DNA of 63,089 bases, taken from positions 1 to 63,089 of the forward strand of contig JAGGAD010000025.1 of NCBI GenBank assembly GCA_017889625.1, read 5' to 3'. Below are positions 6,267 to 16,548 of the stretch, piece by piece. The number at the start of each line of letters is the position of its first letter. The stretch's first letter is position 1. A program made the position numbers and the translations under genes. Source of the DNA: Bacillota bacterium. GTDB taxonomy: Bacteria; Bacillota; Negativicutes; Sporomusales; CTSoil-080. Below the pieces are notes generated by a model. The model had not been told where the DNA came from. It worked only from the letters and a program-made list of their open reading frames with translations, and made no database searches.

Positions 6267-6740
6267 ATGGAAGAAAAAATGAAAATTAAGTTTCTGTTAA
6301 ATAAAAAAAATATAGAAGTAGAAGTATTGCCAAACCGTCGGCTAATTGATTTTTTGCGGGATGATTTGGATTTGATAGGAACAAAATTAGGGTGTGGCGA
6401 GGGAGATTGTGGCGCTTGCACTGTAATTATTAATGGAAAAACCGCGAATTCATGCTTGGTATTAGCACCGCAGGTTGACGGTAAAGAAGTGATTACGATT
6501 GAGGGATTAGGGGATTATGATAAACTAGATTCTTTGCAGCAAGCGTTTATTGATGAGGGCGCGGTTCAGTGTGGTTTTTGTACTCCGGGGATGTTGTTGT
6601 CGGCAAAAACGCTTTTGGATGAAAATCCGAAGCCAAGCCGGGAAGAAATTATGCGTTCCATGTCGGGCAATCTTTGCCGCTGTACCGGGTATGTGAAAAT
6701 TGCAAATGCAATTGAAAAGGTGGCTAACGCAAATAACTAA
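6267..6740 (+). CDS. ndhS: Nicotinate dehydrogenase, 2x[2Fe-2S] subunit
   Basis: This 157-residue protein is the small iron-sulfur subunit of a xanthine-dehydrogenase-family hydroxylase. The N-terminal plant-type [2Fe-2S] site uses C43, C48, C51 and C63 (GCGEGDCGAC context), and the C-terminal helical site uses C102, C105, C137 and C139 (CGFCTPG and CRC). It passes electrons from the molybdenum centre to FAD. The start at 6267 follows a GGGGG ribosome site; an upstream in-frame extension would run into the transporter gene. The Mo subunit gene follows 22 bp later. Assignment to nicotinate as substrate rests on the adjacent enamidase and 6-hydroxynicotinate reductase genes. Confidence 0.88.
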   Translation: MEEKMKIKFLLNKKNIEVEVLPNRRLIDFLRDDLDLIGTKLGCGEGDCGACTVIINGKTANSCLVLAPQVDGKEVITIEGLGDYDKLDSLQQAFIDEGAVQCGFCTPGMLLSAKTLLDENPKPSREEIMRSMSGNLCRCTGYVKIANAIEKVANANN

Positions 6741-6762
6741 GGCAGTAGGGGCGATAGATATT

Positions 6763-9024
6763 ATGGAAGAACTTTCTGTTGTAGGAAAATCGGTCATCCG
6801 CAAGGATGCGTTAGATAAAGTTTTGGGTAAGACCAGATACAGTGCAGATATAAAGATGCCAGGTATGCTTTATGTAAAAGTACTTAGAAGTACGGTGCCT
6901 CATGCGCTGGTTCAAAAAATTGATGTTACGGTGGCTAAAGCCTTGGCTGGCGTAGCCGCGGTGCTGACTGCGGATGATGTGCCGGGGCTGAACGGCCACG
7001 GAATTATTATTAAGGATGAGCCGGTTTTGGTAAAAGATAAAATTCGCAAAATCGGTGATCCGCTGGCGGTTGTTGCCGCTGAAACAGAAGAGATCGCCAT
7101 TCAGGCGCTCAAGCACATTGTTGTAGAATTGGAAGAATTGCCGGCGGTTTTTGATGCCGTGGAAGCGATGCAAGACGATTCGCCTAAAGTACATGGGAAA
7201 AGTAATATTTTAGCAGTAAGAAAAATCTTTAAAGGCGAAATCGACGAAGCCTTTGCGGCTGCGGATATTGTCGTTGAGAATGTTTATTATACCCAGATGC
7301 AGGAACATTCATATATTGAGCCGGAAGCCGGTATTGCCTATATGGATGGCAATCAGGTAGTAATTAAAGCTTCCACGCAAAATACTCATTTTGATTGTCG
7401 TGAAGTAGCGAGAAATTTGGGTGTGCCGCAAAGTCGGATAAGAATGATACAGGCACCTACGGGCGGTGGTTTTGGGGGAAAACTGGATGTATCGGTCCAA
7501 ATATATTTGGCACTTTTAGCGATGAAAACAAGAAAACCGGTAAGGCTTGTTTATTCGCGGGAGGAATCGATAATAGCTTCAACCAAGCGCCATCCCTGTA
7601 GAATTCGTTATCGGACAGCGGCTGATAAGCAAGGAAAACTTTTGGCAGTGGATGTGGAGGCAATTGCCGACACCGGTGCATATGCTTCTTATGGGCCTGC
7701 ACCTGTTACCAGGTTAGCGGTACATGCCACTGGTCCGTATGAAGTTCCAAATGTAAGAATTTATGCGTATACCGTTTACACGAATAACCCCACTGCTGGG
7801 GCAATGCGTGGTTTCGGTGTACCGCAGGCTGCGTTTGCATATGAACAACAGATGGACATGATTGCGGAAAGAGTAGGGATAAGTCCACTGGCTGTCAGGA
7901 TGATCAATTCCTTGAAAAAAGGAAGCAAGATGGCAACGGGACAGATGATTCCCAGTGGACCGGGGATATCGTCAACATTGTTGCCTGCTTACGATAAAGC
8001 AATACAGACAAAAGCGCTGGCAGGTTATGAACCATCAGTTAAAAAGCGGGGCTATGGCTTGGGCTGCATGTTCTTCGGCGTTGGTAATACGGGTCAGCCA
8101 AACCCTGCGGGGGCATTCTTAGATCTATTGGATGATGGAAGTGCTAATTTGATGGTTGGGGCTGCAGATATTGGGCAAGGTTCGAATACGATTTTGGCTC
8201 AGATTGTGGCGGAAGAATTAGGAATGGATTTCGAGGATGTGCAAGTTACATCTGCAGATACTGGAGTTACCCCCGATGGTGGTGCAACTTCGGCCAGTCG
8301 TCAGACCTATATTTCAGGCAATGCAACTTTGTTGGCAGCGAAAGAAGTAAAACAGCTTTTGCTTGCAGAAGCGGCTGCATTGTTTGGCGTAGCTCAGGAC
8401 AAAATTGTATTAAAAAACCGGCAGGTTATGGTTGTTGGCCAGGAAAGCAAAGATGGTATTTCCATAAAACAACTAATTACAGTCTGCCGGAGCAAAGGCA
8501 AGATGACCCTCGGACATGGGTGGTTTAACCCATCAACGACAGCGTTAGATGACGAGACTGGACAAGGGGAACCTTATGAAGCGTATTCTTTTGGTAGTCA
8601 AGTTGTAGAAGTTGAAGTAGACACTGAGACGGGTGTGGTAGAGGTGCTGAACCTTTATGCGGCTCATGATGTTGGACAAGCGATAAATCCGCTGCATGTC
8701 CAAGCGCAAATTGAGGGCGGCAGTATCATGGGACTTGGCTATGGCCTCTATGAGGATATGAAAAAGGTGGAAGGAAAGATAAAAACTTCGTCTTTTGCAA
8801 CCTATCTTATTCCTACTTCACTAGATATACCGTCAATTCAGGCGATTATTGTTGAAGATAAAGCTGATACCGGTCCGTTTGGCGCTAAAGGTTTGGGCGA
8901 AACTTCGCTGGTGCCTACCGCCGCAGCTATTGCTAATGCAGTATATGATGCCGTTGGAATTCGAATAAAGTCGTTGCCGATAACCCCGGAAAAAGTATTG
9001 CGAGCTTTGGAAGAAACTCGATAA
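6763..9024 (+). CDS. Nicotinate dehydrogenase, undivided molybdopterin subunit
   Basis: This 753-residue protein is the molybdopterin-binding subunit of a xanthine-dehydrogenase-family hydroxylase, predicted to hydroxylate nicotinate at C6. Visible landmarks are GGGFGGK near residue 235, GAMRGFG near 346, a GAADIGQGSNT stretch near 465, and GAKGLGE with the likely catalytic glutamate at E713. In E. barkeri this subunit is split into two proteins, NdhL and NdhM; here they are one chain, with the corresponding junction near residue 428 (KKRGYGLG). Local stretches such as RSTVPHA and GIIIKDEP resemble NdhL as I recall it. The start at 6763 has AGGGG ahead. Selenium dependence of the E. barkeri enzyme cannot be judged from sequence. 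Confidence 0.88.
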   Translation: MEELSVVGKSVIRKDALDKVLGKTRYSADIKMPGMLYVKVLRSTVPHALVQKIDVTVAKALAGVAAVLTADDVPGLNGHGIIIKDEPVLVKDKIRKIGDPLAVVAAETEEIAIQALKHIVVELEELPAVFDAVEAMQDDSPKVHGKSNILAVRKIFKGEIDEAFAAADIVVENVYYTQMQEHSYIEPEAGIAYMDGNQVVIKASTQNTHFDCREVARNLGVPQSRIRMIQAPTGGGFGGKLDVSVQIYLALLAMKTRKPVRLVYSREESIIASTKRHPCRIRYRTAADKQGKLLAVDVEAIADTGAYASYGPAPVTRLAVHATGPYEVPNVRIYAYTVYTNNPTAGAMRGFGVPQAAFAYEQQMDMIAERVGISPLAVRMINSLKKGSKMATGQMIPSGPGISSTLLPAYDKAIQTKALAGYEPSVKKRGYGLGCMFFGVGNTGQPNPAGAFLDLLDDGSANLMVGAADIGQGSNTILAQIVAEELGMDFEDVQVTSADTGVTPDGGATSASRQTYISGNATLLAAKEVKQLLLAEAAALFGVAQDKIVLKNRQVMVVGQESKDGISIKQLITVCRSKGKMTLGHGWFNPSTTALDDETGQGEPYEAYSFGSQVVEVEVDTETGVVEVLNLYAAHDVGQAINPLHVQAQIEGGSIMGLGYGLYEDMKKVEGKIKTSSFATYLIPTSLDIPSIQAIIVEDKADTGPFGAKGLGETSLVPTAAAIANAVYDAVGIRIKSLPITPEKVLRALEETR

Positions 9025-9055: not shown

Positions 9056-9757
9056 ATGGAGAACGAATGTTTTATAAAGATACTTTCACATAGTGGTATG
9101 GTAAATATAAGACGGCGTATCGACGCTATCGGTGAATGGCTTTCTCAATCGCCAAAAAGAGAATACCCAATGCTGGAGGATATTTTTTATATCCTCCAAA
9201 AATATCAGGTATCTGATGGCGTTATCAGACATAGTGTAACTGTTGCTGAGGCGGCGGTTAATTTGGCAATATGGTTAAACGAAAGCGGAATAGAGATGAG
9301 TACGCCGATGCTTGCTGCGGCTGGACTTTTACATGATATTGCAAAAGGTACTCCCGCGCATGCAAAACAAGGAGCAAAGATTATCGGTGAGTTAGGGTAT
9401 CCGGCTATTGCGGCTATGATTGCAACTCATATGGATCTAACTATTTTGAAGCATGAAGCTTTGAATGAAGGCGCTATTTTATATTTTGCTGATAAACTAT
9501 CGCGGCAGAATCAAATTGTTAGTTTGGAAGAGCGGTTTAATGCATCGCTTGAGAAATATGATGGCTCGTTGGAGGTAATGGCTTCAATAAAAAAGCGGTT
9601 TATGGCGGCGTGGATCATTCAAAATAAAATTTTAACAGTGGTAGACGGTAAGCTTGTTACTATCAATTCGGCTGAGGCTTATGCGCTATGGAACGTCATT
9701 AAGATAAATGGTCAAGAGGCAGGAGATGTTCATTATTATGAGTCAGTTTATATATAA
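9056..9757 (+). CDS. HD-domain protein within the hydroxylase operon
   Basis: This 233-residue soluble protein has an HD-type metal-dependent phosphohydrolase domain: RHS near residue 58, LLHDIAKG near 90-97, and THMD near 121. It lies between the Mo and FAD subunit genes of the dehydrogenase and overlaps the FAD gene by 20 bp, so it is translationally coupled. In some anaerobes an HD domain is fused to a MobA/MocA-like nucleotidyltransferase (DVU_1551 type). That suggests a role in maturing or recycling the molybdenum cofactor, and a separate MocA-like gene is present at 17759. The actual substrate is unknown; a general nucleotide or phosphate-ester hydrolase remains possible. Confidence 0.8.
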   Translation: MENECFIKILSHSGMVNIRRRIDAIGEWLSQSPKREYPMLEDIFYILQKYQVSDGVIRHSVTVAEAAVNLAIWLNESGIEMSTPMLAAAGLLHDIAKGTPAHAKQGAKIIGELGYPAIAAMIATHMDLTILKHEALNEGAILYFADKLSRQNQIVSLEERFNASLEKYDGSLEVMASIKKRFMAAWIIQNKILTVVDGKLVTINSAEAYALWNVIKINGQEAGDVHYYESVYI

Positions 9758-10601
9758 AAAACCCAAGCAGTTGCAGGAGGCTTTCTCAATAATGAAAGAA
9801 AATCCGGCATATTCAATTATTGCCGGTGGTACTGATTTAATGGTTAAGATGAAGGATAATCGTATAACCGCTAAAGTTATTATTGATGTAAGTGAGCTAA
9901 ATGATTTACGGGAGATAAAAGAAAAACAAGGAACGATTTATCTTGGGGCGGCAGTTACTCATACCGAAATTTGTAAGTCAGAACTATTGAGAGGGTTTGC
10001 GCCAGCTTTAGTTCACGCATCTGGTCTGGTGGGATCGCCTCAAATACGTAATCGAGGAACAGTGGGGGGGAATATCGGAAATGCATCGCCGGCGGCTGAT
10101 ACTATTCCTGCGTTAATGGCGTATGGTGCTGAAATCGTTCTTGCTAGCGCCGAAGGGGTAAGAAGCTTGGCGCTGGAAGATTTCTTTGTTGGGCCTGGGC
10201 GGACTGTCATTTCACCTGGTGAAGTGATACTAAGTATAGAGTTTAATAAACTCCAGGCGACCCAGGCAGTAAGTTTCGAAAAATTGGGGAAGCGAAAAGC
10301 GCTTGCTATTTCGGTAGTCAATGCCGCAGCGTTTCTAGAAATTGATAAAACAAAAGCCGTAGTGACAAAGGCACGATTAGCTTTGGGTTCTGTGGCGGCT
10401 AAACCTATTCGGGTAAGCGCTGCGGAAGAGGCGCTTATTGGTTATTCCTTGTCTGATGATAAAATTAAAGAAGTGGCAAAAATTGTTTCTGATAGTATAA
10501 CACCTATTGATGATGTTCGCTCTGAGGCGCTTTACCGCAAAAGGATTGCCGGTGTTTTAACGCAACGGACCTTAATTGATGCGTGGAAACAACTTGTATA
10601 G
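9738..10601 (+). CDS. ndhF: Nicotinate dehydrogenase, FAD subunit
   Basis: This 287-residue protein is the FAD-binding subunit of the molybdenum hydroxylase. The FAD_binding_5 fold is marked by IAGGTDLMV near residues 28-36 and TVGGNIGNASPAADT near 108-122, followed by the CO dehydrogenase flavoprotein C-terminal domain. It accepts electrons from the FeS subunit and reduces the final acceptor (NADP in E. barkeri). The start at 9738 lies inside the end of the HD-domain gene with AGGAG 12 bp upstream; an ATG directly after that site (9726) is too close. Gene order FeS, Mo, HD, FAD is unusual because of the HD insertion. Confidence 0.88.
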   Translation: MSQFIYKKPKQLQEAFSIMKENPAYSIIAGGTDLMVKMKDNRITAKVIIDVSELNDLREIKEKQGTIYLGAAVTHTEICKSELLRGFAPALVHASGLVGSPQIRNRGTVGGNIGNASPAADTIPALMAYGAEIVLASAEGVRSLALEDFFVGPGRTVISPGEVILSIEFNKLQATQAVSFEKLGKRKALAISVVNAAAFLEIDKTKAVVTKARLALGSVAAKPIRVSAAEEALIGYSLSDDKIKEVAKIVSDSITPIDDVRSEALYRKRIAGVLTQRTLIDAWKQLV

Positions 10602-10656
10602 ACGCAACTTGTAATAAATGACAAATGGAAGGGAAAAGTATAAGGGGGATTCTACG

Positions 10657-11817
10657 ATGGCAGTGACAGTATTAATAAATATAGGACATATAATGACCGG
10701 GGATATAGCTCAGCCTAATAGTTCGGAAAATACCATTGTTATTCAGGATGGGGTTATTGCCAAAATTGGTAGTGAAACTATTATTAAAGATTACCAAGTA
10801 GATCAAGTAATTGATGTTGGCGGTATGACCGTAACTCCGGGGCTCATTGATTCCCATGTGCATCCGGTGTTGGGCGATTATACACCACGACAAAAAACCC
10901 AAGACTATCTTGATAGTGCAGTTCACGGAGGAGTAACAACTTTTATTTCTGCGGGTGAGGCCCATACTCCGGGACGCCCCAAAGATCCGGCGGGAACGAA
11001 AGCGTTGGCAATCTTGGCCCATAAATCTTTTGATAACTTACGCTCTGCCGGGTTAAAGGTGCACGGAGGGGCTGTTATTTTAGAAAAGGGTCTAAAAGAA
11101 GCTGACTTTGCGGAAATGGCCAATGAAGGAGTTTGGCTGGTAGGAGAAGTGGGATTAGGTAGTATAAAAAAACCAGAAGAGGCAAGACCCATGGTGGAAT
11201 GGGCCAAAAAATATAGGATGAAAATAGCTATGCATACTGGAGGAACCTCTATTCCGGGAAGCTCAACGGTTTCTGCTGATGATGTAATTGCCGTGGCACC
11301 AACGGTTGTTTCGCATGTAAACGGTGGACCGACAGCAATAAGACCGGAAGAAGTATACAAACTAATTGAAAAAACAGAGTTGCCGTTGGAAATTGTACAG
11401 TGCGGAAATCCTAAGATTGCGGATCTGGTCGTTCGTCTTCTGGCGGAAAAAGGAAAACTTGATCGGGTGATTCTGGGAAATGATGCTCCTTCTGGATCCG
11501 GAGTTATACCATTAGGAATTTTGCGGACAATCTGTCAGCTGTCATCCATGTCGAAAATTGCACCGGAGAAAGTTATTGCAATGGCTACAGGTAACACCGC
11601 AAAGGTATTTGGCTTAGAAACCGGATTGATTGCTGAGGGTAAAGAAGCCGATTTGGTTGTTATGGATGCTCCGTTAGGCTCCGTAGGGAAAAATGCGGCA
11701 GAAGCTATTTGGGCTGGCGATTTGCCAGGCATTGCAATGGTTATTGTCGATGGAGTCGTTAGAGTAAGTAAAAGCCGCAATACACCGCCAACCACCGGAA
11801 AGTATACAATGAAATAA
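10657..11817 (+). CDS. ena: Enamidase (1,4,5,6-tetrahydro-6-oxonicotinate hydrolase)
   Basis: This 386-residue amidohydrolase matches E. barkeri enamidase very closely as I recall it (385 residues). It hydrolyses 1,4,5,6-tetrahydro-6-oxonicotinate to 2-formylglutarate and ammonia. Metal ligands expected for the Fe/Zn site are visible: H67 and H69 (DSHVH), E164 (VGEVGLG), H193 (MHTGG), H220 (SHVNGG), and an Asp in GNDAPSG near 276. The C-terminus keeps KSRNTPP. The start at 10657 follows AAGGGGG; the ATG at 10618 lacks such a site. It follows the FAD subunit gene and precedes 6-hydroxynicotinate reductase. This is the strongest single identification of the pathway. Confidence 0.93.
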   Translation: MAVTVLINIGHIMTGDIAQPNSSENTIVIQDGVIAKIGSETIIKDYQVDQVIDVGGMTVTPGLIDSHVHPVLGDYTPRQKTQDYLDSAVHGGVTTFISAGEAHTPGRPKDPAGTKALAILAHKSFDNLRSAGLKVHGGAVILEKGLKEADFAEMANEGVWLVGEVGLGSIKKPEEARPMVEWAKKYRMKIAMHTGGTSIPGSSTVSADDVIAVAPTVVSHVNGGPTAIRPEEVYKLIEKTELPLEIVQCGNPKIADLVVRLLAEKGKLDRVILGNDAPSGSGVIPLGILRTICQLSSMSKIAPEKVIAMATGNTAKVFGLETGLIAEGKEADLVVMDAPLGSVGKNAAEAIWAGDLPGIAMVIVDGVVRVSKSRNTPPTTGKYTMK

Positions 11818-11847: not shown

Positions 11848-13323
11848 GTGGCGATTGTAGTTGACCTCGAATTGTGTAAGGGCTGCGGCGTTTGTCTTAA
11901 GGAGTGTCCTAATAAGGCAATTTCCCTTGAAGAAAAGAAGGCGAGACTTGCTGATAGTTGTACTAGCTGTGGAATTTGTGTAAGGGTATGCCCCTTTAAA
12001 GCAATGCATAAAAACTTAGATTTGAAAACCGGTGCAGTAAAGTGTACATCTTGTCCTGTGCAATGTGAAGTTCTAAATGGCTTTATTGGAGCGTGTCAAC
12101 GCTACCGCAATGATGGCGGAAAATTGGTTCGTAATCGCCGCCTTGTAACCGATAAATCGGAAGGCGGTCCGCTTATTACCGCAGTTGGGGCTGGCACGTC
12201 CTATCCATGTTGCCGGCCAGCGCCGCATATTGTTCAGGACACCATAGATGATGTTGAGGTTATTACTGTAGTTACAGAAGCGCCGCTTAGTTATAGTGGA
12301 GTAAAAGTAAAAATTGATACAAATCTATTTATCGGTAACGAAGGAGCAAAAGTTAGACGTAACGGCAAAATAATTGGTATGGTGGACACAGAAGAATACG
12401 GATCAAAAATGCTGACGATTGGCGGGGCAAATCTTCTTACAGGTAAAGACGGCTTTATTGTTGCACGAACTGTTGTAGAAATTGCGAATGGTGAACGTGT
12501 TACGGTCAAAGTCGACGATGGTAGTGAGTTGGAACTTGAGGTTGGGGCCCGACCAATAATAAATGGGATTATTGATACCAAGATGCGTGTAGGCTGCGGT
12601 AGTGCGACTATTGGTATGTTTGCTAGTGTCCTAAAAGAAGCAGTGGATGAAGCGATTATTTTGGATCATCACGTTGTAGGTTTGCTTTCAGAACATTTAG
12701 CGGGTGAATTTGTCGGTATGAGCTGGAGCGGTGTCACTCCTAAGGCGAGAAGGAGTACACGTGGGCGTTATTTTGGGGAGCCTGGACCAGGGTGGGGTGG
12801 AACAGATATTGAAAATCCGCGTGATGCAATTCAGTCGGTGGACATGTTGATAGCCAAAGCAGGTATGAAAATCTTAGTTACAGAGACTACCGGGCAGAAA
12901 GCGGCGTTATTTGAAGTCGAAAAAGACGGGGGCGTTATCGAAATCCCCTTAACAAAACGGGTGAGGCAATCCGTTAATACGATTGTTGCAAATTGTGAAG
13001 AGGCGCGAGTTTCGGCTGTTTATACTGGTGGCACCGGGGGGAGTGCCCGGGCGGGGGTTGCGGTTAATCCGCTTCAGGTAACACAGGCGGTACATTGCGG
13101 TGAGGCAAAATTGACGATTGGCGGAGCGGAAACGTTCGTTCTTCCGGGTGGGGGCATTAATTTTATGGTTGATGTGGAAAAGGTAGTACCGAAAGCCTTT
13201 ACTTGGGTGCCGACACCAGCTACGGTTGCTCCGGTAGAATATACTATGACGTTGGAAAAATATAAGGAAATTGGTGGACATATGGACTATATAAGAATGC
13301 GGGAAGATATAAAAAATAGTTGA
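11848..13323 (+). CDS. hnr: 6-hydroxynicotinate reductase
   Basis: This 491-residue cytoplasmic FeS protein matches 6-hydroxynicotinate reductase, which reduces 6-hydroxynicotinate to 1,4,5,6-tetrahydro-6-oxonicotinate. Two ferredoxin-type [4Fe-4S] motifs are present (C10, C13, C16, C20 and C38, C41, C44, C48), then a third Cys group (C66, C69, C73, C83). This fits the two [4Fe-4S] plus one [2Fe-2S] clusters reported for the E. barkeri enzyme, which also carries covalently bound flavin. A GCGSAT stretch at 249-254 resembles flavinylation motifs recognised by ApbE proteins, and an ApbE-like gene follows at 13345. Translation starts at a GTG with AAAGG upstream. Confidence 0.9.
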   Translation: MAIVVDLELCKGCGVCLKECPNKAISLEEKKARLADSCTSCGICVRVCPFKAMHKNLDLKTGAVKCTSCPVQCEVLNGFIGACQRYRNDGGKLVRNRRLVTDKSEGGPLITAVGAGTSYPCCRPAPHIVQDTIDDVEVITVVTEAPLSYSGVKVKIDTNLFIGNEGAKVRRNGKIIGMVDTEEYGSKMLTIGGANLLTGKDGFIVARTVVEIANGERVTVKVDDGSELELEVGARPIINGIIDTKMRVGCGSATIGMFASVLKEAVDEAIILDHHVVGLLSEHLAGEFVGMSWSGVTPKARRSTRGRYFGEPGPGWGGTDIENPRDAIQSVDMLIAKAGMKILVTETTGQKAALFEVEKDGGVIEIPLTKRVRQSVNTIVANCEEARVSAVYTGGTGGSARAGVAVNPLQVTQAVHCGEAKLTIGGAETFVLPGGGINFMVDVEKVVPKAFTWVPTPATVAPVEYTMTLEKYKEIGGHMDYIRMREDIKNS

Positions 13324-13344
13324 TGGTCATAGGAATAGAAGATT

Positions 13345-14196
13345 ATGATTCAAGTTATTTCGGCGAATAAAGTGTATCTTGACTATGGTCCAATGCAGAT
13401 GACTTTAATTGCGTACGCGGAGGACAAGGGGCAATCGCTGATCGATAAATTGCAGGGAGCGGCTAGATATGGCATCAGTTTATTAGAGGAATTATCCCTT
13501 GTTTTGCCTGTAGCAAAAAGTTTTCCTACAGCAAACAATACTGATATAAGGAGGCTGCCGCTTCCTTTGGTTTATATGGTGGAGGCTGTTAGGGCAACGA
13601 AAGACCTTAGTTTGACGCCAATGGCTGCAGTAGCGGGAACTTTCGCCGACTTGGTAGCGAACTGGTTGGTGGAAAGAGGCGCGGCTAAGGTCATCATTAA
13701 TAATGGCGGAGATATTGCGATTCGGCTGTGGGGTGAGGAAATGACCAAGATCGGCATTACCCCCAGCATTGGCGCAACCCAATTAACTCATTTAATAGAA
13801 CTTTCCAGCCGAAGGGGAATCGGCGGTGTTGCTACAAGCGGATTAGGCGGAAGAAGCTTTACAAAAGGGATAGCTAGCTCAGTAACTGTTTTTGGACAAA
13901 CTGCTAGGATTGCCGACAGCTGTGCGACGCTTATAGCAAACCATTGTTATTTCCCTGATCCCGGGATCAGACAATTGCCAGCTGATGAACTTGATCCAAA
14001 TACCGATATCCCTGGCCACTTGGTTACGGTTGAGGTTAAAAATATAAGTATGACTACAAAACTTAGGGCATTAGAGCGAGGCATAGCCAAGGCAACAGAA
14101 TTAAGAAATGCAGGGATTATCCATGGTGCAATTGTGTTTATCGATGAACTGGTAATGATGATTCCAGAGAATGTATGTTGTGGCGTTAATAAGTGA
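13345..14196 (+). CDS. UPF0280 family protein (ApbE-like fold)
   Basis: This 283-residue protein belongs to UPF0280, a family related to ApbE flavin transferases. ApbE-like landmarks include a VINNGGDIAIR stretch near residues 114-124, SGLGGRSFTKGIASSVTVFG near 172-191, and IADSCATLIAN near 195-205. It has no signal peptide, unlike classical periplasmic ApbE, so it would act in the cytoplasm. It begins 22 bp after the 6-hydroxynicotinate reductase gene. Because that reductase carries covalent flavin in E. barkeri, the inference is that this protein attaches or loads the flavin. No direct evidence exists in the sequence; UPF0280 members have no function known to me. Confidence 0.82.
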   Translation: MIQVISANKVYLDYGPMQMTLIAYAEDKGQSLIDKLQGAARYGISLLEELSLVLPVAKSFPTANNTDIRRLPLPLVYMVEAVRATKDLSLTPMAAVAGTFADLVANWLVERGAAKVIINNGGDIAIRLWGEEMTKIGITPSIGATQLTHLIELSSRRGIGGVATSGLGGRSFTKGIASSVTVFGQTARIADSCATLIANHCYFPDPGIRQLPADELDPNTDIPGHLVTVEVKNISMTTKLRALERGIAKATELRNAGIIHGAIVFIDELVMMIPENVCCGVNK

Positions 14197-14211: not shown

Positions 14212-15105
14212 GTGAAAGTAGGGTTTATAGGTTTAGGAGCGATGGGCAAGCCGATGGCACTCAATCTGTTGAAAGCCGGGCACTTGCTAGTGGTTAACGA
14301 CGTAAATGCTAAAGCTGTAGAAGAGTTGATATTGGCTGGTGCCAAAAAAGCAGAAAGTCCTAAGCTCTTGGCAGAGCAGGTTGAAGTGGTTATTACAATG
14401 TTGCCCAACGGAGGAATTGTCGAACAAGTACTACTTGGTGAACAAGGAGTATTGGCTGGCGCTGGTGATGGTTTTGGTATTATAGATATGTCAAGTGTTG
14501 CTCCGGGATTTACGCAGAAAATGGCCCGGCTCGCGGCCCAAACGGGAGTTTGTTATCTTGACGCGCCGGTTAGTGGCGGCGTGAAAGGAGCTGCGGAAGG
14601 TACGCTTACCATTATGGTTGGGGGCGACGAACAAGCGCTGGCTCGTTATCAGGGCTTGTTTCAGATATTAGGTAAAAAAATTCATCATATCGGTGCGGTT
14701 GGAGCCGGGGATGCAGTAAAAATTGTTAATAACCTAATGTTAGCAATTAATATGGCTGGCGCTGCAGAAGCCTTTGCCCTTGGCACTAAAATGGGACTGG
14801 ATCCTCAGGTAATATTTGATATTGTTAGTGCGAGCTCCGGTAATAGTTATGCATTGTCAGCTAAAATGCCTAACTTTGTGTTTAAGGGGAATTTTACGCC
14901 AGGGTTCACAGTTGATTTGCAGTACAAAGATTTAGAACTGGCTGTACAAACCGCGAAAGATGTACAAGTTCCGATGCTTTTGACAAATGTTGTGCAGCAA
15001 CTTTATGAACAAGTTCGGGCTGCTGGGCTTGGTAAGGAAGATATCTCTGCAATTATAAAACCATTGGAAACCCTTTGTGATATTCAAGTCAGAGTAAAAA
15101 ACTAA
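14212..15105 (+). CDS. hgd: 2-(hydroxymethyl)glutarate dehydrogenase
   Basis: This 297-residue protein is a member of the 3-hydroxyisobutyrate/6-phosphogluconate dehydrogenase family. It has an N-terminal Rossmann motif (GFIGLGAMGKPMA), the DAPVSGG signature near residue 117, and the catalytic-lysine region GAGDAVKIVNNLM near 162-174. In this context it should reduce (S)-2-formylglutarate from enamidase to (S)-2-(hydroxymethyl)glutarate with NADH. Family alternatives, such as tartronate semialdehyde reductase, cannot be excluded by sequence alone but are disfavoured by its neighbours. Translation starts at GTG, preceded by ATGGGGG, 15 bp after the UPF0280 stop. Confidence 0.88.
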   Translation: MKVGFIGLGAMGKPMALNLLKAGHLLVVNDVNAKAVEELILAGAKKAESPKLLAEQVEVVITMLPNGGIVEQVLLGEQGVLAGAGDGFGIIDMSSVAPGFTQKMARLAAQTGVCYLDAPVSGGVKGAAEGTLTIMVGGDEQALARYQGLFQILGKKIHHIGAVGAGDAVKIVNNLMLAINMAGAAEAFALGTKMGLDPQVIFDIVSASSGNSYALSAKMPNFVFKGNFTPGFTVDLQYKDLELAVQTAKDVQVPMLLTNVVQQLYEQVRAAGLGKEDISAIIKPLETLCDIQVRVKN

Positions 15106-15126: not shown

Positions 15127-16548
15127 ATGGATGCACTTATAAACTATATAAAGAAACAAGGCTATAATATAGGTAATCTTACCATCGGGGAAAGCCTTGA
15201 AATTGCTAAGGAACTGCAGGTCCGGGTGAGTGATGTAGTCATTGCGGAGGCAATGCATGAAAATGCATTAAGCCGTGAGGAAGTTAAGGCATCCGTTCAG
15301 GCGGCCTTTCGTCATAATTTATATGCAACAGAAATCGGCTTGACAAGTAGCTCTAGTTTTTTGCTTGGCCAAGTGCCGCAAGAATTGGCCGCTGATGACT
15401 TTGCAAACCGACTATTTGAGGATGATTTAGTTAACCGAATTTTAGTGTATACATTAGGTGCACAGGTTGGTAATCATACCTGTGGATTAGAGCCGTGTGC
15501 TGGGACCGGTGATTCTTGTACTTATTCGGGGTTATACCGCGCTTTTCAAGAAACGATTGTGGATGAAGATGAGCTATTTCGCGTGAGCTCCGTTATTCTC
15601 AAAATAGGTACGATTTTTCGGGCGGGTAAAACGACAACTGGCTGTAATATGGAGGGTTTTGGGGCAGGGGCTGCGGCGACTGCGGCAGCAATGGTAGAGA
15701 TGAAAAAAGGCTCGCCGGAATCAATGAATAAGGCAATTGTTTTAGCGCTTTCACCTACGATCGGTAATCCATGCACGCCTAGAGTCATGGTGGCGGGATT
15801 ATGTTCAACCCATATAGGTGGTGGCGTGATAATTGGTAATCTAGCAGCAAACTTAGCGCTTAAAACCAATATTCCGGTAAATGTTCCGGCGGATGTAATG
15901 ATAGCCATGGCCGCGGCTGTCCATTCGGTATCAGCTAAAAGCATAGTTCCGGTTGTCATTGAGTATATGCATCCGTTTTTTAAAACAAATCTGGAAGTTG
16001 AAGCTTTTATTGAACAAAATATAAAAGATAAAGAACAAGACGCTATTGATAAAACCATGCAGGTGGCAATTGAGAAAGCGCGGGAGTTAGCAAAAAAAGC
16101 AAACTCTATAGTTAAGCCATTTGGCGATGCTGTGGTAGGCGGAAGCAGTCAGGCCGTGGGATCGCCGACTAATACAGGCCGAATAGCCCATGATTTGGCA
16201 AAAGGCGAGATTACTGGTGTGAAAATTGAACTGTATCCGGAACTCTTTGCCCGTCGTGGCATTAATGTACCAGGTATATTAATGGGAGCGGTGTTGGGAG
16301 CTGGTACTGACGACAGCAAAGCTTATAAAGAAATTATGCAGATTATGCGGGAGAAAAAAATAAAGGTAGAAATAGTAGAAGTTAATGAACCGCAATTGCA
16401 GCGAGTTACCGTATATGCCGCGGAACAAAACAGTATGGTTGAGGCATTGAATCGTGGTGGCGCACGTTTAGTACTGAAAAAGGCAGTACCATCTGTTGAC
16501 GCTGCTTCTGAAGTAGCCAAAAAACTAGGTATTGTTTTAGTAGATTAA
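15127..16548 (+). CDS. hmd: 2-(hydroxymethyl)glutarate dehydratase, serine-dehydratase-like
   Basis: This 473-residue protein resembles the [4Fe-4S]-dependent L-serine dehydratases with alpha and beta parts in one chain. Cysteine-bearing stretches are GLEPCAGTGDSC (about 119-130), TTGCNMEGFGAG (about 174-185) and GNPCTPRVMVAGLC (about 215-228), which could supply the cluster ligands. A C-terminal regulatory-like segment follows. In the E. barkeri pathway a serine-dehydratase-like enzyme is predicted to dehydrate 2-(hydroxymethyl)glutarate to 2-methyleneglutarate. The position directly after hgd, spaced 21 bp with a GGCAGGAG site, supports that role over serine catabolism. Confidence 0.85.
   Translation: MDALINYIKKQGYNIGNLTIGESLEIAKELQVRVSDVVIAEAMHENALSREEVKASVQAAFRHNLYATEIGLTSSSSFLLGQVPQELAADDFANRLFEDDLVNRILVYTLGAQVGNHTCGLEPCAGTGDSCTYSGLYRAFQETIVDEDELFRVSSVILKIGTIFRAGKTTTGCNMEGFGAGAAATAAAMVEMKKGSPESMNKAIVLALSPTIGNPCTPRVMVAGLCSTHIGGGVIIGNLAANLALKTNIPVNVPADVMIAMAAAVHSVSAKSIVPVVIEYMHPFFKTNLEVEAFIEQNIKDKEQDAIDKTMQVAIEKARELAKKANSIVKPFGDAVVGGSSQAVGSPTNTGRIAHDLAKGEITGVKIELYPELFARRGINVPGILMGAVLGAGTDDSKAYKEIMQIMREKKIKVEIVEVNEPQLQRVTVYAAEQNSMVEALNRGGARLVLKKAVPSVDAASEVAKKLGIVLVD

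Follow-up and report, generated by a model that had tools for sequence, protein, structure and literature searches.

A UPF0280 clade dedicated to 6-hydroxynicotinate reductase and its possible role in flavin attachment

The closest described systems to the UPF0280/COG2122 protein analyzed here, whose gene follows that of 6-hydroxynicotinate reductase (Hnr), are the ApbE/Ftp flavin transferases (PF02424). UPF0280 has in common with them the fold (Z of 15 to 17) and the NxGGD, TSG, and D-x3-[ST] motifs; in contrast to them, it has no apparent signal peptide, lacks the HIxDPxTG loop, the general-base His, and the Lys after the GG segment, and has a client, Hnr, without a canonical flavinylation motif. 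In ApbE of V. cholerae, Ser241, His257, and Asp285 are conserved, with His257 as the general base, and the target motif of the family is D-x-x-[ST]-G-A-[ST], in which Thr or Ser is the acceptor (PMC12052999). The cytosolic ApbE of Klebsiella, which acts on a soluble fumarate reductase, likewise is cytoplasmic and serves a soluble reductase, but it is a true ApbE with a canonical motif in its client, unlike UPF0280 and Hnr (PMC12052999). The COG2122/UPF0280 proteins of homocysteine synthesis (DvMF_0044 and MA1715) belong to the same family and also partner a ferredoxin-coupled reductive enzyme, whereas they fall in a separate clade, have HcyBio/DUF39 plus a NIL/ferredoxin protein as the client, and carry G-x-S (mostly GPS or GHS) where Hnr-type proteins carry GRS. 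Homocysteine synthesis in Desulfovibrio depends on COG2122 (Price 2018, PMC5764234), and in Methanosarcina a role in sulfur trafficking has been ascribed to it (PMC12068725). The closest solved structure is that of DVU1097 from Desulfovibrio vulgaris (PDB 2O34, "DUF375"; Z of 21.8 over 216 residues, 19% identity), a shorter protein (250 residues) to which the title of the PDB entry assigns no function.

The nicotinate cluster of Eubacterium barkeri, which Alhapel et al. are said to have described in 2006, reportedly encodes an Hnr with covalent flavin, an enamidase, Hgd, and a serine-dehydratase-like step, and the purified Hnr is reported to carry this flavin. The enamidase, Hgd, and the serine-dehydratase-like step are common to that cluster and our window, the whole stretch of 63,089 nucleotides analyzed (contig C83 of a 3.3-Mb draft genome). 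The window holds a nicotinate fermentation cluster headed by an AA_synth gene (PF06684; 2678 to 3205, + strand), followed by genes for two MFS transporters, the molybdopterin subunit of nicotinate dehydrogenase (NdhL/M as one chain; 6700 to 9024, +), an HD-domain protein, the FAD subunit of the dehydrogenase (NdhF-like; 9708 to 10601, +), and an enamidase of the amidohydrolase family (10618 to 11817, +), which catalyzes the next pathway step and whose gene immediately precedes hnr in most relatives. The hnr gene (491 amino acids; 11848 to 13323, +) and the UPF0280 gene (283 amino acids; 13345 to 14196, +) come next, and after them lie an hgd-like gene for 2-(hydroxymethyl)glutarate dehydrogenase of the 3-hydroxyisobutyrate dehydrogenase family (14212 to 15105, +), a serine-dehydratase-like gene that probably encodes 2-(hydroxymethyl)glutarate dehydratase (15127 to 16548, +), and molybdenum-cofactor genes. 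The adjacency of hnr and UPF0280 described in an earlier note on this DNA stands, while the 22-bp gap given there is 21 bp by our measurement (13324 to 13344).

The hnr product has two 4Fe-4S motifs of the ferredoxin type in its N-terminal part (Pfam Fer4; C10/13/16/20 and C38/41/44/48) and a further invariant site, C66-x2-C69-x3-C73-x9-C83, and its relatives in annotated plasmid records (41 to 45% identical) are named 6-hydroxynicotinate reductase. The body domain of Hnr has no Pfam match; when the structural model of Hnr (pLDDT of 89.7) was searched with Foldseek and VIA, the ferredoxin domain filled the matches listed, and none of these was to the body. Hnr proteins of alpha- and betaproteobacteria (L158 to L165) lack the N-terminal two-4Fe-4S domain and keep C-x2-C-x3-C-x9-C, and a ferredoxin-NADP reductase gene is present in several of their loci.

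The UPF0280 open reading frame matches the ApbE family PF02424 weakly (26.7 bits, residues 84 to 175) and the UPF0280 model NF003322/PRK04334 strongly and over nearly its whole length (210 bits, residues 2 to 275), though under that model's equivalog cutoff of 290, and the UPF0280 profile matches the homocysteine-type clade with an E value of 1.7e-25. Its AlphaFold model (pLDDT of 95.3) finds ApbE, FmnB, and Ftp in Foldseek with E values of 1e-5 to 1e-3 and aligns with ApbE/Ftp flavin transferases with Z of 14.8 to 17.4 over 205 to 220 residues. The protein had been called ApbE-like and cytoplasmic, which agrees with a predicted ApbE fold (Z of about 17) and with a sequence in which no signal peptide is apparent. 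The motifs are TPMAAVAG (residues 91 to 98), NNGGD (119 to 123), TSG (164 to 166), GRS (169 to 171), and D191-x3-T195. In a profile alignment with ApbE proteins of the same order, NNGGD pairs with NAGGD and TSG with TSG, and the alignment ends before HILNPRTG; VAGTFA of UPF0280 aligns to IGKDYA of ApbE, with Gly in place of the Lys of the "GGxxK" segment. Of the ApbE triad, UPF0280 thus retains Ser and Asp but not His, and the span from Ser to Asp is 26 residues compared to about 45 in ApbE. Across Hnr-type sequences, NGGD is present in 73 of 73, and TSG and D-x3-[TS] are each present in 70 of 73, one of the misses being a frameshifted copy from a metagenome-assembled genome. The HIxDPxTG loop with its catalytic His was found in 0 of 73 Hnr-type and 0 of 47 HcyBio-type sequences, and the UPF0280 members aligned have no invariant Cys. 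A genuine ApbE is encoded elsewhere in the same genome (L001); its HILNPRTG loop is complete, and the 3.8 kb read around its gene showed no FMN-binding client next to it.

Scanning GTDB genomes for Hnr yielded 37 loci, and UPF0280 lies downstream of hnr in every one that has room for it. The gap between the genes is -14 to +64 bp in nearly all loci, so that the two often overlap, and 0.2 to 0.7 kb in L004, L005, and L032; L023 comes from a metagenome-assembled genome with frameshifts. Of the 126 loci that have both genes, a set with some redundancy, 121 have UPF0280 directly after hnr on the same strand, and no gene fusion of the two was seen among the loci read. Hnr was found in 11 of 299 Bacillota genomes, and the identical 11 have a full-length, high-scoring Hnr-type UPF0280; in 198 Desulfobacterota genomes, 36 have Hnr and 36 have Hnr-type UPF0280, with 35 in common. 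The co-occurrence of the two genes that had been proposed as a check is thus seen in both phyla. One Desulfobacterota exception is a locus cut by a contig end (G519), and the other is an orphan Hnr-type UPF0280 in a genome in which Hnr was undetected (G533; L239, 3601 to 4467), where NGGD has become NGED and GRS is lost, as if the gene were decaying after loss of its client. In two genomes (G493 and, for one of two hnr copies, G491), hnr and UPF0280 lie on separate contigs, with other genes beside hnr. In the nicotinate cluster of G108 (L242, 755 to 2316), the region from the enamidase gene to AA_synth lacks hnr and the 5' part of UPF0280; either both were deleted together or the assembly has a gap there. 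The pair is also kept in eight alpha- and betaproteobacterial plasmids among the records read. Since proteobacterial Hnr proteins without the ferredoxin domain keep UPF0280, the partner serves the body of Hnr and not its ferredoxin part. Our samples are phylogenetically structured, so naive co-occurrence probabilities overstate the case; what supports the conclusion on pairing is a set of separate losses together with the paralogue counts. A mirror-tree comparison of Hnr and UPF0280 gave r = 0.78 over 73 loci, a value that we left out of the evidence because shared ancestry alone yields high values.

In a tree of 61 UPF0280 sequences, a single branch with support of 100 splits the Hnr-type from the HcyBio-type proteins. 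Lower-scoring UPF0280 copies occur in about 100 further genomes of the 299 Bacillota and track HcyBio (PF01837), with the other-type UPF0280 present in 98 of 98 Bacillota genomes that have HcyBio; the gene order in the HcyBio loci read is HcyBio, NIL/ferredoxin, UPF0280. Three Bacillota genomes have a lower-scoring UPF0280 without HcyBio: one is 72% complete, in another the copy is decayed and lies next to genes for methionine synthesis, and the third is G108, with its Hnr-type fragment beside the enamidase gene. The Hnr-type copy is present in 25 of 25 Hnr genomes, 16 of which have HcyBio and an additional other-type copy, while 9 are without both. The earlier note had held that UPF0280 occurring mostly in genomes that lack Hnr would speak against a link; this distribution is found for the family as a whole (about 100 compared to 11 of 299 Bacillota) and not for the Hnr-type clade, and it does not count against that clade because the copies in question form a separate, HcyBio-tied one. 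Given the matched occurrence, the retention in genomes without HcyBio, and the plasmid pairs that are kept, Hnr-type UPF0280 is almost certainly a dedicated partner of Hnr. The two client enzymes were also compared to each other by hhalign (26 and 18, then 84 and 36, sequences of Hnr and HcyBio, respectively), which gave an E value of about 0.1 and one stretch of 24 to 28 residues, VVTEAPLSYSG in Hnr (approximately residues 138 to 160) and VVTTGTFGPMCSSG in HcyBio (residues 45 to 65), that is not significant by profile comparison. The stretch deserves mention solely because, with Cys54 placed by motif, it probably includes this essential residue of the sulfurtransferase, whose importance has been reported (PMC12068725). 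No solved structure related to HcyBio by sequence was found.

UPF0280 very probably matures Hnr, perhaps by attaching its flavin. The specific reading that we favor, with a probability of roughly one-half, is that UPF0280 is a cytosolic maturation factor that installs the covalent flavin of Hnr without the ApbE His and at a residue other than Thr254. UPF0280 would bind FAD and Mg2+ and would attach the flavin without the histidine that ApbE usually employs; the invariant GCGS loop of Hnr (Cys250 and Ser252) would be the first candidate for the site, and with the bound flavin, electrons passed on singly by the iron-sulfur clusters could be used for the two-electron reduction of 6-hydroxynicotinate. 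In both client systems, a ferredoxin module with two 4Fe-4S sites feeds a reduction; the module is part of the Hnr chain and is a separate NIL/ferredoxin protein beside HcyBio, and a flavin would be expected there as the one-/two-electron switch. The fold, the metal and phosphate motifs, the dedicated pairing, and the covalent flavin reported for E. barkeri Hnr make the flavin step plausible. Counted against it are the missing His loop, the lack of a canonical motif in Hnr, and the published sulfur-based reading of the HcyBio-type proteins (PMC5764234, PMC12068725). Neighborhood and co-occurrence show dependence, not chemistry. We know of no experiment that links any UPF0280 protein to flavin.

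The earlier note had proposed that UPF0280 is a flavin transferase that places the flavin, here taken as FMN, on Thr254 of Hnr, within a GCGSAT stretch said to resemble the flavinylation motif S/T-G-A-T. The stretch is where it was placed in the translation, at residues 249 to 254 (codons at 12592 to 12609, + strand), and it is beyond chance, since all 79 full-length Hnr proteins share G249, C250, G251, S252, and A253 and no other open frame of at least 200 amino acids in the window contains GSA[ST]. At position 254, 60 of the 79 have Thr, 17 have Ser, and 2 have Ala. Although both Thr and Ser can be used by ApbE, the two Ala254 proteins (L077/L240 and L162) are intact, come from distant lineages, and have intact UPF0280 partners, and this variation makes Thr254 a poor candidate and unlikely, on sequence grounds, to be an obligatory acceptor. 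The likeness to the canonical motif also fails, as D-x-x-[ST]-G-A-[ST], strict or relaxed to [ST]GA[ST], is found in 0 of 84 Hnr proteins, the Asp and Gly are missing from the site, and [ST]GA[ST] is absent from every Hnr, HcyBio, and NIL/ferredoxin protein checked. In addition, the Hnr model places GCGSAT after a loop, where a predicted helix (residues 251 to 265) begins, and the loop could bind a flavin phosphate. We therefore regard transfer to Thr254 as improbable, and we infer that Cys250 and Ser252 are better acceptor candidates.

That UPF0280 retains the pocket motifs but not the ApbE general base or its loop could also mean that it is a non-catalytic partner, a chaperone or subunit to which FAD or apo-Hnr is bound during autocatalytic attachment of the flavin. 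Conserved Cys250, His283, and Tyr residues of Hnr could take an 8-alpha link, and self-catalytic attachment is common in His-, Cys-, and Tyr-linked flavoproteins (PMC12052999), but the triad Ser and Asp and D-x3-T are kept almost always, which exceeds what a plain scaffold needs, and we think such a role unlikely, if a serious contender. We give about the same weight to a sulfur or iron-sulfur function in both systems, with UPF0280 handling persulfide or sulfide for HcyBio and modifying a cluster or Cys250 in Hnr. The need for COG2122 in Desulfovibrio homocysteine synthesis, its assignment to sulfur trafficking in Methanosarcina (PMC5764234, PMC12068725), and the cysteines of Hnr, 12 of them probable cluster ligands in addition to the invariant Cys250, favor this function; however, Hnr is a reductase with no known sulfur chemistry, the proteobacterial Hnr minus its 4Fe-4S domain is still paired with UPF0280, and no Cys is invariant in the UPF0280 members aligned. 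That UPF0280 is a pathway enzyme merely sharing an operon with hnr would fit a cluster in which all genes appear devoted to nicotinate breakdown, but the pair remains in loci without enamidase or hgd (L016 and L017), spans fermentative and aerobic hosts, and behaves as a unit when one gene is lost, the other being lost or decayed (G108 and G533), so this explanation is very improbable.

The division of UPF0280 into two client-specific clades is a stronger result than the flavin-transferase reading. It provides an annotation rule, in which the UPF0280 clade predicts the client enzyme of a genome. Many anaerobes carry COG2122/UPF0280, and D. vulgaris needs it for homocysteine synthesis, with no chemical role known for it; a clade tied one to one to Hnr, a client reported to carry covalent flavin, gives the family a concrete and quickly testable function. 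If UPF0280 does attach flavin to Hnr, this would explain the source of the Hnr flavin. A broader and more tentative possibility is that UPF0280 is a second, His-less cytosolic class of flavin-attaching proteins in the ApbE superfamily, with two client-specific clades and a non-canonical attachment site. The "sulfur trafficking" of COG2122 would then be recast as flavin installation, and the clients would be Hnr in pyridine breakdown and HcyBio/L-aspartate semialdehyde sulfurtransferase in homocysteine synthesis.

We also made several observations on the sequences and layout of these loci. A lone in-frame TAG interrupts an otherwise open Hnr frame (G500:C182:7626-9137) and an otherwise open UPF0280 frame (G526:C39:1158-1949); these codons could be pyrrolysine, errors, or decay. 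The AA_synth gene lies directly after UPF0280 in several relatives, and several proteobacterial clusters have two copies. The HD-domain gene of the window (9056 to 9757) is inserted between the two dehydrogenase genes, that for the molybdopterin subunit and that for the FAD subunit, and its product resembles the C-terminal region of DVU_1551-family NTP transferases. The molybdopterin subunit is a single chain in the window (6700 to 9024) and is encoded by two genes in many relatives (compare L003, 2821 to 5102), as in E. barkeri, where the two products are NdhL and NdhM.
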